NCBI GenBank assembly: GCA_030068145.1
Contig: JAPJBO010000310.1
Span: forward strand, 124,001 to 188,000
From: Diplonema papillatum
Lineage: Eukaryota; Euglenozoa; Diplonemea; Diplonemida; Diplonemidae
Length of the DNA stretch: 64,000 bases
Direction of reading: 5' to 3'
This document shows, in pieces, positions 12,073-52,900 of the stretch (the first letter of the stretch is position 1; each line of letters opens with the position of its first letter). The notes below the pieces were generated by a model. The model did not search any database and was not told the origin of the DNA. It saw nothing but the letters and a program-made list of their open reading frames with translations. Position numbers and translations under genes: made by a program.

Positions 12073-13220
12073 TTGACGTGGAAGACCGTCTGCAGTGCGT
12101 GTTTGGCAAGTCTGCGATGTGTACAAGACAAAGAGCTTAAACGATCTGAAGAGCGCCGCAGCCAAAATGTTGCGATCCTGCGAAGTGACATCAACGTCCG
12201 TCTGCGACCTGAGCCAAAAGGTGAATATCCGTCCGAAAATGACGTGGAAGATGGTCTGCAATGCGTGCTTGGCAAATGCAGTCCACGACAACAGAGCTTT
12301 AGCGATCTGAGAAGAGCACACTAGCCTAAGTGTTACGATCGTGTGAAAGTGGCGTCGACGTCCGTCTGCAACCTGAACCGGTCGGTAGCCAAAAGGTGAA
12401 TACCCGTCCGATAATGACGTAGAAGACCGTCTGCAGTGCGTGCTTGGCTAATGCAGTCTGCGATGCGTGCACGACAAGGAGCTCCAGCGATCTGAAGAGC
12501 ACACTAGCCTAAAGTGTTACGATCGTGTGAAAGTGGCGTCGACGTCCGTCTGCGACCTGAACCGGTCGGTAGCCAAAAGGTGAATACCCGTCCGAGAATG
12601 ACGTAGAAGACCGTCTGCAGTGCGTGCTTGGCTAACGCAGTCTGCGATGCGTGCACGACAAGGAGCTCCAGCGATCTGAAGAGCACAATAGCCAAACTGT
12701 TACGATCGTATGAAAGTGGCGTCGACGTCCGTCTGCAACCTGAACCGGTCGGTAGCCAAAAGGTGAATACCCGTCCGATAATGACGTAGAAGACCGTCTG
12801 CAGTGCGTGCTTGGCTAATGCAGTCTGCGATGCGTGCACGACAAGGAGCTCCAGCGATCTGAAGAGCACACTAGCCTAAAGTGTTACGATCGTGTGAAAG
12901 TGGCGTCGACGTCCGTCTGCGACCTGAACCGGTCGGTAGCCAAAAGGTGAATACCCGTCCGAGAATGACGTAGAAGACCGTCTGCAGTGCGTGCTTGGCT
13001 AACGCAGTCTGCGATGCGTGCACGACAAGGAGCTCCAGCGATCTGAAGAGCACAATAGCCAAACTGTTACGATCGTATGAAAGTGGCGTCGACGTCCGTC
13101 TGCAACCTGAACCGGTCGGTAGCCAAAAGGTGAATACCCGTCCGATAATGACGTAGAAGACCGTCTGCAGTGCGTGCTTGGCTAATGCAGTCTGCGATGC
13201 GTGCACGACAAGGAGCGATC
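12073..13220 (+). repeat. Satellite with ~183-bp unit and 366-bp higher-order dimer
   Basis: Seven units start at GACGTRGAAGA, at about 12076, 12241, 12416, 12601, 12784, 12967 and 13150. The first two are diverged and shorter (165 and 175 bp); the later ones are 182-185 bp and nearly identical. The later units alternate between two forms, CACTAGCCTAAAGTG and CAATAGCCAAACTG, so the true recent repeat is a dimer of about 366 bp. The minus strand is open through the dimers because 366 is divisible by three. I do not read this as a gene: the frame has no start context and simply follows the repeat. Confidence 0.9.
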
Positions 13221-13238
13221 TGAAGAGCACATTAAAGA

Positions 13239-13414
13239 GAGACCGCTGAGGGTATTTACGACACCTATAAAGGAACCTTTTCGACGATGATCAACCCCCG
13301 GATTCTCAAGCGAACCTTCACTCTACGTATATACGACACCTATAAAGGAACTTTTTCGACGATGATCAGCCCCCGGATTCTCAAGCGAACCTTCACTCTA
13401 GAGACCGCTGGGGA
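13239..13414 (+). promoter_or_regulatory. Tandem TATA-bearing repeats upstream of the GH79 gene
   Basis: Two tandem units (13239-13325 and 13328-13414) each contain CACCTATAAAGGAAC, then TTTTTCGACGATGATCA or a near match, then CTCAAGCGAACCTTCACTCTA. TATAAA lies at 13266-13271 and 13341-13346, the second 94 bases before the GH79 start codon. Related units lie after the gene (15045-15225) and in the ELAPOR-like gene's last intron (28220-28800). The spacing suits a core promoter, but dispersal shows the unit is itself a repeat; promoter activity is an inference. Confidence 0.5.
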
Positions 13415-13439: not shown

Positions 13440-14888
13440 ATGCTTTCCGTCGTGCTCGCCGCGTGGGCAGTGGGGCAGATGGTCGTCGTTTCCGTCAACG
13501 AAACGGCGGTGCACCAGACGGTGAGCGAGGACTTCGTGTGCGTCGGCATGGACTGGTGGCCGTCGAACAAGTGCAACTACGGCGTCTGCCCGTGGGGGAA
13601 CGCGAGCATCATCAACGCGAACTTGCAGGACGAGCGCATCATTAAAGCCGTGCAGATGCTCGACAAGCCGATCATCCGCATGGGCGGCACCCAGGGCGAC
13701 ACGATCGTGTACAAGGTCGGTGACCCGGTGCCGGACTGCCCGTCTTTCTCCCCGGCGCCGCCGACCGTCGCGTCCAGCTTCACCGGCGGATGCCTGACGA
13801 TGGAGAGGTGGGACGAGATCTACGAGTTCACGCAGAAGACGGGAGCGAAGCTCGCTTTCGGCCTCAGCGCGAGGTACGGCAGGCAGTCGTCTCCGCAGAG
13901 CCCGTGGGACCCGTCAAATGCCCTCGCCCTGATGAAGTACACCGTGGCCAAGGGATACGATCACATTTTCGCGTACGAGTGGGCCAACGAGCTGTCGTAC
14001 AGTGCGCAGATGTTCTCAGACGGGATCCACCAAGTGCACGACGCCATCAACGACGCGTACACCGGGTCCAGCATCGCGCCGCCGAAGATCGTCTCGCCCG
14101 ACTACATCAGCTGGAACGCGACGCTCTTCGAGGAGCTTCTCCCGCTGGTGCAGGACGTGGCGTTCGCGCTCTCGTGGCACGACTACCCCCTCGGAGCCGG
14201 GTATGACAACCCGAACTTGGACCAGAAGGTGATGGACCCGAACCAGAACAGCGGATGGACCAAGGACGCGGAGCAGGGTGTCGCCCTCTCGAAGAAGGTC
14301 AACAACGGGAAGGTGAAGATGTGGATGGGCGAGTCAGGGGGCGCGTACAACAGCGGGCACAACGGCACGTCGAACCGCTTCGAGTACGCGTTCTGGTACA
14401 TCGACTCGATGGCGGCGTTCGCGGCAGCCGGGCAAGACGCGTTTTGCCGGCAGGCGTTTTTGGGAGGGAACTACGAGCTGCTGGACCACCGTACGAACTT
14501 GCCCAACCCGGACTTCTTCGGCGCGGTTCTGTTTAAAAAGCTGCTGGGGCCGCGGGTCCTCGCGGCTGCGTCGAACAGCACGGACCTCCACGCGTACGCA
14601 CAGTGCACGCCAGGGACGTCGGGGAACGTGACTGTCTTGATGCTCAACTACGGCGCCGGCGCCGCGACGGTGAGCCTGCCGCCGGCCGCGGCGCCGACCC
14701 GTCAGGAGTACCACCTGCGCGGCCACGGCGGCGTCCTCAACTCGTCGCACGTCGACCTCAACGGCGAGATGCTGACCATCGACTCGGAGCTCTCGCCGGC
14801 CGTGGTCGCCGCGACGGGTCCCGTTTCGGTGGCGGGGCAGTCGTACGCCTTCGTCGTGTACAAGGGTACCGGCGTCTGCGGCAACTAG
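13440..14888 (+). CDS. Secreted glycoside hydrolase family 79 (heparanase / beta-glucuronidase-like)
   Basis: Single exon, 482 codons, ATG to TAG, strongly GC-ending codons. A hydrophobic N-terminus (residues 1-18) looks like a signal peptide, and several N-x-S/T sites suggest a secreted or lysosomal glycoprotein. It has the (beta/alpha)8 layout of GH79 retaining enzymes: the acid/base Glu is E184 in the motif YEWANE, the nucleophile is E298 in MWMGESGG, and WHDYP (247-251) is the conserved strand-end motif between them. The C-terminal part (about 370-482) is beta-rich, as in heparanase. Members cleave beta-glucuronic acid or 4-O-methylglucuronic acid links in glycans such as heparan sulfate or arabinogalactan proteins; the substrate here is unknown. 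The length is usual for the family and nothing looks broken. The start was chosen as the first ATG leading into the signal peptide. Confidence 0.92.
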   Translation: MLSVVLAAWAVGQMVVVSVNETAVHQTVSEDFVCVGMDWWPSNKCNYGVCPWGNASIINANLQDERIIKAVQMLDKPIIRMGGTQGDTIVYKVGDPVPDCPSFSPAPPTVASSFTGGCLTMERWDEIYEFTQKTGAKLAFGLSARYGRQSSPQSPWDPSNALALMKYTVAKGYDHIFAYEWANELSYSAQMFSDGIHQVHDAINDAYTGSSIAPPKIVSPDYISWNATLFEELLPLVQDVAFALSWHDYPLGAGYDNPNLDQKVMDPNQNSGWTKDAEQGVALSKKVNNGKVKMWMGESGGAYNSGHNGTSNRFEYAFWYIDSMAAFAAAGQDAFCRQAFLGGNYELLDHRTNLPNPDFFGAVLFKKLLGPRVLAAASNSTDLHAYAQCTPGTSGNVTVLMLNYGAGAATVSLPPAAAPTRQEYHLRGHGGVLNSSHVDLNGEMLTIDSELSPAVVAATGPVSVAGQSYAFVVYKGTGVCGN

Positions 14889-42254: not shown

Positions 42255-42413
42255 CATAAGTACCGGTTATTGACCGCAATGTTGCGGTCAATGACCGCAT
42301 GGGTGCGGTCAATGACCAGTACCCTACCGGTCAATGACCGCAAGGTACCGGTCAACATTATTGCGGTCAGCGTGGTGCGGTCATTGACCGCACCAGCCCT
42401 TGACCGGTCCACC
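42255..42413 (+). repeat. Right subterminal repeats of the composite transposon
   Basis: At least eight copies of (A/T)TGACCGCA or its complement GCGGTCAATGACC, plus TACCGGTCAA words, ending TTGACCGGTCCACC and passing directly into the right arm. Mirror of 38236-38345. Confidence 0.75.
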
Positions 42414-42610: not shown

Positions 42611-44830
42611 TTGCACTCCAACATCCTGCCATATCTATATGGTACTCCGAAGCTACACAAACCCGAGCCTCGGATGCGGTACATTGCCGGCGTTTCAGAG
42701 AAGGGAAACACGGAGAAAACGGACGAACAGCAGGCAAAAGCTGAAAAAACTCCCAACAAGAAGCAACCGAAGACGCGCGCCTCAACAACACCAGCCCACC
42801 AAGAGACATCGGGCATCCTAAAACTGGTTCTAGCCACACTGCAAGGCAAGGACGAAGCGTCTCGGGCAAAGACGGGGATACGTCGCTTCTTCGTCGTCGA
42901 ATCAATTGACGGCGTAGCCGTTCACATTAAGACAAACTACGCACGGCTACGCCAGAAGGTCCCACGTACATTCGATTTCAAAGAAATGTACACAAAGATT
43001 CCGCAACAGCGAATTGTAGAGTACGTCATGCTCGCTGTGTCGGAAGCATTCGAGTACGCGAAGGCGGAACGTGGTTGTGACCTGAAGGCACGACGGTCGA
43101 AGCAGCAGTTCGAGTTCAGCAATGCTGACGCGATGGACGCGACAGCATACAACGTCGAGGAGATCCGGGAATTGGTCGAATTCATTGTCGGCAACACGTT
43201 TGTGACGAACGGTGGTCAATGTTACCAGCAGGTAACTGGAATTCCAATGGGCGGTAACGCAAGCCCAGATCTGGCGAATCTGTATTGCTACTGGTGTGAA
43301 AAGCTTTACATCGATAGCCTGATCACGGAAGGACGCCATGAAGAAGCCAGAGCCCACGCCGACAGCGTCAGGTTCATCGATGACTTCCTGACTTGGAGTG
43401 CACGACCACCACCGGAAGCAATCTACGGCATGGAATATTCGGAAACGTCGAAAGACGTTGACGACGTAGTCTTCTTGGGAATGCGCGTTAGAGTTGAGAG
43501 GGGTAACAAGGCCAACTTCATCCGACTCTCCGTTCTGGACAAGGGTGAAGAGTTTCCATGGTACCCCATCAAATACACGCATGCCGAGTCGACGGTCCCG
43601 CGAAACACCGGAACCTCGATATTCAAAGGTGCCCTGATACGAGCAGCCCGCATCTGCAACAACATGCCTGATCTCAAAGTCGAGATCATGAAGGTGTACT
43701 ACCGGTTGCGAGATCGTGGGTTCTCCGGACGTGAACTGCGACACACGTTCGATACTTTTGTCGTGCAGACATACGGCAAGTACGAACTGGACGCACGGGT
43801 GCTGACACAGTTTTACCACTATGTTGGGAAAGCCTATGACGAAGGACGCCCAACGAACGAAGAGAAGCCGTACATCAACACCCGACAGCCGAACCGACCC
43901 ACCTCCCCACCACATCAGACGCCCAACCCGCCCGAGCCCGAAAACACCACAACGACTGTCTCGCCCTCAAACGAACCAACAGGTTCTCCCAAACGCAACC
44001 GCAACGGCATCACCAACGTTCGCAACACGTGCTTCTTTGCCGCCAGCGTCCAATTTCTGGCACGCAAACGAAACTTCCGGAACCAACTCGAAACTATTGA
44101 GCGTCCGGATGAAGAACAGTTGAAAATCCGTCGACTTTTCACGGATTTTGATGCTGGCCGTGACATCCATGGTTCGATGGCAGAAATTCGAAGTCTCGTT
44201 TTCGGCACAACTGAGAACGACTCCGAACACCGTGATGCCCACGAACTGCTGACATGGATGAGAAGCTGCGTGAGGGGGGATAACAATGACCCAACGATGG
44301 TGACATACTCACGGCGAACCACCTGTAAAGTGTGTCAGGAGACCTCGACAGCGGTGCCGGTGTTAGAACCATTTCTCCTTGTAGAGCTCAAAAACAGGGA
44401 GAACTCCTACACCGAGACGGTTGAAGCTCTTGTAAACAAAGTAAAGAACAAGAGAGCAGCCGATGTCGACCTCGACTGTACAACATGCCGAAAAAAGACG
44501 GTAGGCTCCTCGAAAGAGGTCTATGCCTTTCCAAATATGATGGACGTGGCACTGAAACGGGCCCAACGGTCGAAGAGGACAGGCGAGGAGATAAAAGTGA
44601 AAGCCCGCACACCAATCCAATCAACCATTGGGATTGGCGAAGACACGTACATGGTGACGGGTTTCATAATCCACACTGGAAAAGTACATGCTGGGCACTA
44701 TTACACCATTATGAAAGAAGCAGACGAATGGGTGTGTTATGACGACCAGCAAGTATCAGTGCTCTCATGGGAAGCATGTGCCGGAAAGTTCGTTTCGAAC
44801 GGTTACATCGTCTCCCTTGAGAAGATATAA
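42611..44830 (+). CDS. Penelope-like reverse transcriptase fused to a USP-type ubiquitin protease
   Basis: One frame of 739 codons. RT domain (about 1-400): YGTPKLHKPEPRMRYI (10-25), motif A FDFKEMYTKIP with D122, motif B QQVTGIPMGGNASPDLAN (206-223), motif C RFIDD with D257/D258, and a thumb with ALIRAARICN and RLRDRGF, typical of Penelope-like elements. A Pro-rich linker (420-460) leads to a USP domain (465-739): Cys box NGITNVRNTCFFAASVQF with C474, two zinc CxxC pairs (572/575, 623/626), His box HTGKVHAGHYYTIMK with H696, and WVCYDDQQV with D711/D712. No GIY-YIG nuclease follows. The reading frame starts at a non-ATG triplet inside the transposon arm that ends at 42616; the first in-frame ATG (42674) would lose the first RT motif, so the 5' end is missing or lies in an unseen exon. 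Both active sites look intact. Confidence 0.85.
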   Translation: MHSNILPYLYGTPKLHKPEPRMRYIAGVSEKGNTEKTDEQQAKAEKTPNKKQPKTRASTTPAHQETSGILKLVLATLQGKDEASRAKTGIRRFFVVESIDGVAVHIKTNYARLRQKVPRTFDFKEMYTKIPQQRIVEYVMLAVSEAFEYAKAERGCDLKARRSKQQFEFSNADAMDATAYNVEEIRELVEFIVGNTFVTNGGQCYQQVTGIPMGGNASPDLANLYCYWCEKLYIDSLITEGRHEEARAHADSVRFIDDFLTWSARPPPEAIYGMEYSETSKDVDDVVFLGMRVRVERGNKANFIRLSVLDKGEEFPWYPIKYTHAESTVPRNTGTSIFKGALIRAARICNNMPDLKVEIMKVYYRLRDRGFSGRELRHTFDTFVVQTYGKYELDARVLTQFYHYVGKAYDEGRPTNEEKPYINTRQPNRPTSPPHQTPNPPEPENTTTTVSPSNEPTGSPKRNRNGITNVRNTCFFAASVQFLARKRNFRNQLETIERPDEEQLKIRRLFTDFDAGRDIHGSMAEIRSLVFGTTENDSEHRDAHELLTWMRSCVRGDNNDPTMVTYSRRTTCKVCQETSTAVPVLEPFLLVELKNRENSYTETVEALVNKVKNKRAADVDLDCTTCRKKTVGSSKEVYAFPNMMDVALKRAQRSKRTGEEIKVKARTPIQSTIGIGEDTYMVTGFIIHTGKVHAGHYYTIMKEADEWVCYDDQQVSVLSWEACAGKFVSNGYIVSLEKI

Positions 44831-45189
44831 ACACTTTCACTCAGTGGAAGCAGTGCCCCGTGGCGGTTGGTTACGAGCCACAACCCAAACCAGAACCCCC
44901 TTTTTTTAATCTGACGAAGGAAGGATGCGATAAACATTGGAACCAGAAAGTTGTGAAAGCACCGGAACAGGACCGAAAGTCCCCGTCCAAAGGACCCACT
45001 GAAGAGCTCTAACTTTGGATTGGTATGCGTTCAAGAGCGAAACCAGAGACAAAGAACGAGGTGCACACAACACCGCGGTGACAAAAAGAAAAAAAGAATA
45101 CAGAGGAATAGTCCCTCAAGGTTCCAGACCCTACCTGCGGAGTCTTACACTCCCTGCGACCCTTTTCCCTTTCCCCTATTTTATTTTAC
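44831..45189. other. 3' flank of the RT-USP gene
   Basis: No gene. Contains a GGACCGAAAGTCC hairpin at about 44970. CTGACGAAGG (44915) resembles part of a hammerhead core, but the required stems are absent. Confidence 0.35.
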
Positions 45190-45288
45190 ACTTTCTTCGA
45201 CGAAGACTTGATGCTAGCATCAAACATGCATGCGAGGCAGTACTCTGCCTAAACATTAAACTAAGTTTCCCCCCCCCCTTTTGGCATC
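45190..45288 (+). repeat. Dispersed repeat family J, copy 3
   Basis: TTTCTTCGACGAAGACTTGA to AAACTAAGTTTCCCCCCCCC, ending again in a C tract. Confidence 0.8.
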
Positions 45289-49960: not shown

Positions 49961-52900
49961 ATGGGCGGTGGCAAGGGAGCCTTTTATAAGGCGAAGTACG
50001 GCGGAGGTGGTAAGGGGGGCGGGAAAGGGTCGAAGGAAGAGGCCTCCGGCGGCGGCGGGAAAGGCAGCCTGTTCGACAGAGCGGCCGGAGCGTCAGGAAG
50101 CAACGGAGCGCAGGAGAACGATGGGGACGTGGACATGGGTCGAACGTGGAACGCGTCCGACGCGCAACCCTCGACGAAGGAGAGCCTGGTGTCCAAGCTC
50201 ATCGGGCTGGAAGGCAGGCAGTACCCGATGTACCGTGGCATCGAAAACTACGCGTACAGGTTCAGCGAGGGCTTCACCCTCATATTGGACCGGGCGCAGA
50301 CCGACCCTTACGCACCGCCGTCGAAAATGAGGTTCCTCGTCTCTTCGCAGACAACTGGATACTCGGCTGGCCTCGTGTCGAATAGAGTGCGTAGAATCGC
50401 ACTTGCGGACTACCTGTGCCGCAGGTTCTGGGAGGAGGTTCACCACATCGGTCTCGACGAGGTGAAGCAGTCGGCATCGTATCACGCCGCGAAGGGCGGG
50501 GAGCTTAACATCGAGCGCCCCACGCAGCACGTTCTCGAGCGGACTTCGGTCGTCGTGTATCCGAACATGGAGGTCGAGGTGCGCTTCCAGCTCTCGCTGC
50601 CGGCGAGGGGGCGGAGCATTCTGGGCGAAGAATGCGCCCGGCTGGTCTGCGGCACGCTGCCGTCGGTCATCTCGAAGACGATCCCCGCGGGAGCGAACGA
50701 CATGGCCCGCATTTCGAGCCACCTGGAGTGCGTCGAGGACCAGGAGAGCCTTCGGCTGTCGCTGCCGGCGCTGAACCTCGTCGCGTTCGTCGCGAACGGC
50801 GCGATCCTGCCCCGGCGCGGCGGCGACGACGACCGGCCGATGGAAGGTCGGCGCGGGGAGGCCACGCGGCCGGTGCCGTTTCGCTCGCCGGAGTCGATGC
50901 AGGTGACGGTCAAGCTGCCGAACCGGGGCGAGGTGACGGGGATGGGCATCCGGCCGGGGGTAACGCTGATCGTGGGAGGTGGGTTCCACGGCAAGTCGAC
51001 GCTGCTGCGGGCGTTGGAAGTCGGCGTGTACAACCACGTGCCGGGGGACGGGCGGGAGTTCGTCGTTTCGGTGCCGGATGCCGTCAAAGTCCGGGCCGAG
51101 GACAAGCGGGGCGTGCAGAACGTGAACATCAGCCCCTTCCTCAACAACCTGCCCATGGGCAAGCCGACGGACAACTTCTCGACGCAGGACGCGTCCGGGT
51201 CCACGTCGCAGGCGTCGAACATCATCGAAGCCCTCGAAGTCGGCGCCTCCGCGTTGCTCATCGACGAGGACACCTGCGCCACCAACTTCATGATCCGTGA
51301 CCGCCGCATGCAGCTGCTCGTCTCCAAGGACAAGGAACCCATCACCCCGTTCATCCTCAAGGTTTGCTCCCGGCTTCTATCGGGACCGCGTAGAGGGAGG
51401 GAAAACGAGACTCCTCCAGTGCAGACACGGAAAGCCTGGGAGCTACAATATTATACGGGGAGCAAAGTGTACAATACTGATAGAAATCTCAACCCTCACC
51501 CGACAAGGAACCCATCACCCCGTTCATCCTCAAGGTTTGCTCCCGGCTTCTATCGGGACCGCGTAGAGAGGGGGGAAAAATGAGACTCCTCCAGTGCAGA
51601 CACGTAAAGCCTGGGAGCTACAATATTATACGGGGAGCAAAGTGTACAATACTAATAGAAATCTCAACCCTCACCCGACAAGGAACCCATCACCCCGTTC
51701 ATCCTCAAGGTTTGCTCCCGGCTTCTCGGGACCGCGTAGAGGGAGGGAAAACGAGACTCCTCCAGTGCAGACACGTAACGCCTGGGAGTTACAATATTAT
51801 ACGGGGAGCAAAGTGTACAATACTAATAGAAATCTCAACCCTCACCCGACAAGGAACCCATCACCCCGTTCATCCTCAAGGTTTGCTCCCGGCTTCTGTC
51901 GGGACCGCGTAGAGGGGGGGAAAACGAGACTCCTCCAGTGCAGACACGTAAAGCCTGGGAGTTACAATATTATACGGGAGCAAAGTGTACAATACTAATA
52001 AAAATCTCAACCCTCACCCGACAAGAAACCCATCACCCCGTTCATCCTCAAGGTTTGCTCCCGGCTTCTATCGGGACCGCGTAGAGGGGGGGGAAAATGA
52101 GACTCCTCCAGTGCAGACACGGAAAGCCTGGGAGTTACAATATTATACGGGGAGCAAAGTGTACAATACTAATAGAAATCTCAACCCTCACCCGACAAGG
52201 AACCCATCACCCCGTTCATTCATAAGGTTTGCTCCCGGCTTCTCGGGACCGCGTAGAGGGAGGGAAAACGAGACTCCTCCAGTGCAGACACGTAGCGCCT
52301 GGGAGTTACAATATTATACAGGGAGCAAAGTGTACAATACTGATAGAAATCTCAACCCGACAAGGAACCCATCACCCCGTTCATCCTCAAGGTTTGCTCC
52401 CGGCTTCTCATCGGACCAGTGATACAATGCTGGTATCTGATGGCGACTGAGTCCGATGCAGCAGACGATGATGGTGTTGATGGCAGCCACACTACTAGTG
52501 ACGTACTATAGACCACAGTGGTAGAATTGCTGGTGTCACGATAGCGATTGCACTAGCAGACTTATGGTGTTGATGGCAGCCACACTACTAGTGACGTGCC
52601 ATAGACCACAGTGATAGAATGCTGGTGTCACGATAGCGACTGCACTAGCAGAGTCCGATGTAGCAGACTTATGGTGTTGATGGCAGCCACACTACTAGTG
52701 ACGTACCATAGGCCACAGTGGTAGAATTGCTGGTGTCACGATAGCGATTGCACTAGCAGACTTATGGTGTTGATGGCAGCCACACTACTAGTGACGTACC
52801 ATAGACCACAGTGGTAGAATTGCTGGTGTCACGATAGCGATTGCACTAGCAGACTTATGGTGTTGATGGCAGCCACACTACTCCTATACAACAGCGGCAG

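Follow-up and report, generated by a model that had tools for sequence, protein, structure and literature searches.

The window, that is, the whole 64,000-nucleotide stretch of contig JAPJBO010000310.1 of the marine flagellate Diplonema papillatum analyzed here, contains an open frame in which a reverse transcriptase (RT) appears to continue into a ubiquitin-specific protease (USP). Do these two enzymes really belong together, what kind of element carries them, and what might the peptidase do for it? The first-pass annotation had proposed a Penelope-type RT fused in frame to a USP, and both parts of this proposal stood: the window ORF list gives 739 open codons at 42611 to 44830 (+ strand) without an internal stop, both profile and fold identify the C-terminal part as a USP, the copies scored elsewhere in the genome keep it, and the RT has a telomerase-like fold and is accompanied by a GIY-YIG nuclease in full-length copies.

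The window copy and its domains

Two Pfam profiles had been suggested as a check, and only that of the peptidase succeeded. UCH matched residues 466 to 722 with an E value of 1.6e-18 (67.7 bits against a curated cut-off of 23.9), placing the C-terminal part in the USP family as predicted, while RVT_1 stayed below its cut-off (E=0.067), so that the RT was recognized instead by its homologs, by its motifs and by the fold that a homolog adopts. Our own RT HMM, made from six relatives, matched the window frame with an iE of 5.1e-186, although this model, like that for GIY-YIG and the others we built, was seeded by a few of the same proteins later scanned. The RT fold was closest to telomerase, as in Penelope-like elements (PLEs), and the structures matching the USP included the SAGA Ubp8 module, USP1 and many other USPs, all close in Z. 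The catalytic residues and CxxC pairs picked out in the first-pass annotation (Table 1) were all correct, and Cys, His and Asp are kept in all 11 complete USP rows, which represent eight distinct families.

The best homologs of the window protein were D. papillatum proteins, but RT-USP proteins were also found from further sources (P0013, P0015, P0030 and P0035). One of these, P0015, is a de novo transcript, labelled in a way that points to the diplonemid Rhynchopus humris; it spans both RT and USP, placing the two halves on one transcript rather than on separate ones. In another D. papillatum family (P0016), the gene model ends just inside a candidate USP, with a 26-residue match below the Pfam cut-off (E=0.00028). 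Several public D. papillatum models (P0006, P0007, P0008, P0010, P0025 and P0074) consist of element pieces apparently fused to host genes (UNC93-like, dynein chain, STIP1-like, TTC39B, RRP12 and, weakly, a calpain-like protein), probably as annotation artefacts, and P0002 is named ubiquitin hydrolase 26.

Table 1. Features of the retrotransposon copy in the window (window coordinates)
Feature	Position	Strand	Remarks
5'-truncated retrotransposon copy, subfamily A	42614..45275	+	blastn against A copies
RT-linker-USP open frame, 739 aa, without native start codon	42611..44830	+	
Reverse transcriptase domain, aa 3-405	42617..43825	+	RT HMM, iE 5.1e-186
RT motif A aspartate D122	42974..42976	+	nearly invariant in 20 aligned proteins
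RT motif C aspartates D257/D258	43379..43384	+	invariant in 20 aligned proteins
Pro/Ser/Thr-rich linker	43826..44005	+	mostly low model confidence; without Gly-Gly; dN/dS 0.18-0.39
USP (peptidase C19) domain, aa 466-733	44006..44809	+	
Catalytic Cys474 of USP	44030..44032	+	
USP CxxC pair 1, aa 572-575	44324..44335	+	
USP CxxC pair 2, aa 623-626	44477..44488	+	
Catalytic His696 of USP	44696..44698	+	
Catalytic Asp711/Asp712 of USP	44741..44746	+	
3' untranslated region, ending ...AAACTAAGTTT(T)	44831..45275	+	

In blastn comparisons, homology to other copies starts at 42613/42614, inside the RT, and stops near 45275 (per-copy ends from 45259 to 45278), with identities of 99.4 to 99.8% to the subfamily A copies L002 to L019 and of 96 to 97% to L024. 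Upstream of 42614, the sole match was a stretch of 108 bp at 76% in L021. Judging from these alignments, the window copy is 5'-truncated and has lost its GIY-YIG nuclease in this way; it was itself probably dead on arrival. No target-site duplication was evident around it on inspection by eye. Some 260 bp before the insertion, at 42260 to 42355, a 21-bp unit of inverted symmetry is repeated in an array. Elsewhere in the window there are a glycosyl hydrolase family 79 gene (13440 to 14888, E=3.2e-76), preceded by tandem repeats at 12074 to 13400, and an ABC-class ATPase gene (51329 to 52414 together with the ORF 49961 to 51583; PF09818, E=4.9e-100) that passes in its 3' part into tandemly arrayed repeats of about 171 bp, resembling the repeat-bounded genes described in the available passages of PMC10161547.

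Full-length copies and mobility

The search of the D. papillatum genome scored 61 of 1,538 candidates, so that RT copies without a USP may have been missed, and gave 62 rows falling into subfamilies A (27 rows, 98 to 100% identity, two of them one split copy), B (7 rows, 78 to 80%) and C (28 rows, 72 to 73%). Since L018, L019 and L020 have common 3' flanks, some of the rows probably count a single insertion more than once, on contigs that are duplicates. In 57 of the 62 the sequence spans from before D122 to the end of the USP, only one has an internal stop, and 33 lie within frames that are 1,400 codons long or longer; RT and USP thus occur together in further copies among the candidates scored.

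Counted from the likely ATG, the full-length copies (L031 to L034) encode 1,408 (A), 1,422 (B) or 1,441 (C) amino acids, arranged as a basic N-terminus (26 to 28% Lys plus Arg), GIY-YIG, a CPC motif, RT, a Pro-rich linker and USP; in L032 the nuclease occupies residues 208 to 296, CPC lies at 500 and the RT at 672 to 1074. The GIY-YIG domain was recognized in all four by our own HMM (iE from 1.1e-24 to 2.8e-27, one of the four being a seed of the model) and by Pfam in P0021 (E=2.8e-6). In this detail the first-pass annotation, which had seen only the truncated copy, was not supported: the element does possess the nuclease. N-terminal-endonuclease PLEs are defined by a nuclease N-terminal to the RT with a CxC motif between them, and the copies here show this order and motif together with tandem copies, pseudo-LTRs and no canonical hammerhead: an Rfam search of L031 to L034 and the window gave no match at gathering scores. 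A PLE with a C-terminal endonuclease was considered and rejected.

Several features are signs of retrotransposition. Four distinct 5' truncation points were found, at 42614 (window), 42637 (L018 and L019), 42859 (L021) and 42975 (L022) in window coordinates, and the 3' ends of copies agree within about 20 bases, the earliest being that of L004 at 45259. Three copies lie head to tail on C510 with a period of 5,726 bp. The full-length copies of A and B are bounded by identical terminal repeats, 76 bp long in A and 119 bp or more in B; none were found in the C copy. Most of the A copies shown differ from poly-A tailed elements in that AAACTAAGTTT(T) is followed at their 3' end by a stretch of C residues whose length varies. 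The 17 A copies comprising the window and L002 to L017 have only five codon differences over the shared frame, two of them residue-changing (in one, the window copy has Tyr instead of Phe at residue 421), and this near-identity indicates a recent spread. Viral contigs searched with P0001, A3 and A2 yielded no relatives, and nothing there points to a virus.

Selection and the diversity of peptidases

Purifying selection on RT and USP had been suggested as a check, and both domains show it. We calculated dN/dS by the Nei-Gojobori method with our own script for one copy per subfamily, the ratios being approximate because dS is high (1.5 to 1.7 for the USP). Given in the order A-B, A-C and B-C, they were 0.056, 0.085 and 0.086 for the RT, 0.111, 0.134 and 0.139 for the USP, 0.094, 0.036 and 0.037 for GIY-YIG, 0.18, 0.39 and 0.20 for the linker, and 0.28, 0.36 and 0.38 for the basic N-terminus. 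The linker ratio exceeds that of the USP in every pairwise comparison, and on these ratios the USP has been kept under purifying selection in all three subfamilies. The idea of a chance read-through, or of a functionless one-off capture of a host USP fragment beside an RT, would suit the window copy taken alone, which is truncated and has no start, but copy number and dN/dS refute it, and selection on the USP in three subfamilies, RT-USP proteins from other sources and the P0015 transcript speak against it as well.

The USP is one of several peptidases found at this position. A tree of the RT was built from 68 of 90 proteins, omitting 10 redundant D. papillatum rows and 12 short RTs (including P0013 and P0071). 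One clade (98/92) takes in every deubiquitinase-labelled row, with 25 Josephin, eight USP and four OTU rows plus P0033 (OTU, on weak evidence) making up 38 of its 43 rows, although the three protein searches were all seeded with deubiquitinase-bearing proteins and are thus biased toward such architectures. No deubiquitinase was detected in the other five rows of the clade (P0034, P0037, P0038, P0064 and P0070) or in any of the 25 tree rows outside it. The AU test rejected a single clade for USP (p-AU of 0.00039) and for OTU (2.9e-6) with weakly labelled rows (P0016, P0019, P0032 and P0033) included, and again without these and P0070 (0.00022 for seven USP rows and 0.00004 for three OTU rows), on groups defined after the tree had been viewed and with long branches in the tree. 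The OTU rows P0014 and P0018 nest within a group of USP rows (100/98).

As for the labels themselves, the OTU profile matched P0018 and P0031 above the curated cut-off and P0032 and P0033 below it; P0014 had no match and is tied to OTU via P0018. Among six Josephin-labelled proteins scanned with Pfam, three were above the cut-off (best, 5.8e-12 in P0055), P0017 fell 1.6 bits short, and P0019 and P0059 had no match. Precomputed Josephin annotation exists for 11 of 47 rows and a Josephin fold was found in related proteins, whereas a profile of A3 searched against PDB sequences did not find Josephin. Of the 24 rows aligned, which do not include P0019 and P0052, 22 have the Josephin catalytic Cys and 23 the His. 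Both residues are lost in P0071 and P0019, and the Cys in P0066; these would be degenerate copies or non-catalytic forms, so activity is not universally kept. In P0070, the C-terminal 800 amino acids show, by eye, a Ulp1/C48-like pattern (GHWY ... SLDNG ... QTDSWSCG), possibly a fourth, Ulp1-like fold; against PDB sequences this protein gave nothing below E=0.5.

Two proteins carry in addition a J-domain near the C-terminus, P0031 being RT-OTU-DnaJ (DnaJ E=5.1e-19) and P0035 RT-USP-DnaJ (8.5e-20), which indicates that the fold was swapped while its neighbors stayed. The window thus contains a genuine RT-USP element, conserved and of recent mobility, which exemplifies a wider pattern: a PLE clade that carries deubiquitinases of three folds or more. 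That three unrelated folds supply one activity at one position in one RT clade is most simply explained by selection for taking off ubiquitin or a modifier resembling it, which suggests that deubiquitinase activity gives such elements something important.

Putative role of the peptidase and related systems

What this could be is a matter of interpretation. The first-pass annotation had put forward protection of the RT or its complex, or an effect on chromatin, and either would be plausible. We favor, with a probability of roughly 0.55, an N-terminal-endonuclease PLE in which the GIY-YIG nuclease would nick DNA, the telomerase-like RT would copy RNA at the nick (target-primed reverse transcription, as suggested for PLEs in the available passages of PMC11167929) and the USP, presumably active and held on a flexible linker, would strip ubiquitin from the element's ribonucleoprotein (RNP) or nearby partners, countering ubiquitin-dependent degradation or eviction by the host. 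On its flexible tether, such a deubiquitinase would most readily reach the protein of the element itself, the RNP or the machinery that tags it, and action in cis on its own protein or RNP is our guess. Protection in cis is favored as it best accounts for the recurrence, the position and the J-domains, the last of which would fit a role in proteostasis.

The main rival, which we consider rather unlikely, has the tethered deubiquitinase ease integration by acting, where the element inserts, on chromatin or on repair factors (e.g., ubiquitinated histones or PCNA). The USP would indeed be carried to target DNA by the RT and the GIY-YIG nuclease with which it shares a protein, and the Ubp8 module and USP1 are among the structural matches, though many others match too; the close Z values reveal no histone-type specificity, and the two J-domains indicate protein quality control instead. 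Processing of the element's own protein, in the manner of viral papain-like proteases, would agree with the placement of the peptidase, which comes after the RT and a linker whichever of the three folds it has. We find it decidedly improbable, as USP and Josephin enzymes normally cleave after the C-terminus of ubiquitin and Gly-Gly is missing from the RT-to-peptidase linker in nine of the 10 proteins inspected (P0035 has one). That the domain is a non-catalytic module binding ubiquitin or a host factor seems very improbable: the Josephin-like domains of P0071 and P0019 could be cited for it, but the catalytic residues persist in every complete USP row and in nearly all aligned Josephin rows.

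Extending the protective reading from this element to the whole group is more tentative, and we put it at a little under an even chance that this protist clade of telomerase-like retrotransposons depends on a deubiquitinase, repeatedly acquired from unrelated folds (USP, OTU, Josephin and perhaps Ulp1) and sometimes joined by a J-domain, as a counter-defense against ubiquitin-based restriction. Many viruses counter their host with deubiquitinases. If confirmed, protection by the tethered enzyme would imply restriction of retroelements by the ubiquitin system in some protists, presumably as the selecting force, with elements responding in kind. The near-identical intact copies in a cultured diplonemid make the idea testable.

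A literature search, mostly of titles and the beginnings of abstracts, found no report of a deubiquitinase on a PLE, nor did the passages available from PMC10161547, PMC11167929, PMC6431247 and PMC3482391; in the main text of the D. papillatum genome paper, "Penelope" and "ubiquitin" both occur zero times (PMC10161547). A USP or Josephin domain on a PLE is therefore likely new in print. Canonical Penelope/Poseidon elements have the same telomerase-like RT and GIY-YIG in one ORF, but their nuclease is C-terminal, they possess a hammerhead ribozyme, and no deubiquitinase is mentioned in the available passages (PMC11167929). Cellular USP12/USP46, Josephin-2 and ataxin-3 resemble the C-terminal domains found here in fold and catalytic residues, but identity in structural alignments is only about 16 to 23%, and the domains of the elements are fused to an RT. 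The N-terminal-endonuclease clade, including Naiad and Chlamys, was reportedly described by Craig et al. in 2021. Elements of this type share with ours the N-terminal GIY-YIG, a CxC lying between it and the RT, terminal repeats and the head-to-tail arrangement of copies (the Rfam search here yielded no hammerhead ribozyme), but those described here differ in their C-terminal USP, OTU or Josephin domain; to our knowledge, no C-terminal deubiquitinase has been described for Naiad/Chlamys-type PLEs. Dualen/RandI non-LTR elements carry an OTU domain. An OTU-like cysteine protease is also carried by Helentrons, according to the available passages of PMC6431247. Both are likewise mobile elements coding for a deubiquitinase-like cysteine protease, but they belong to other element classes, and their protease is an OTU rather than a USP or Josephin.
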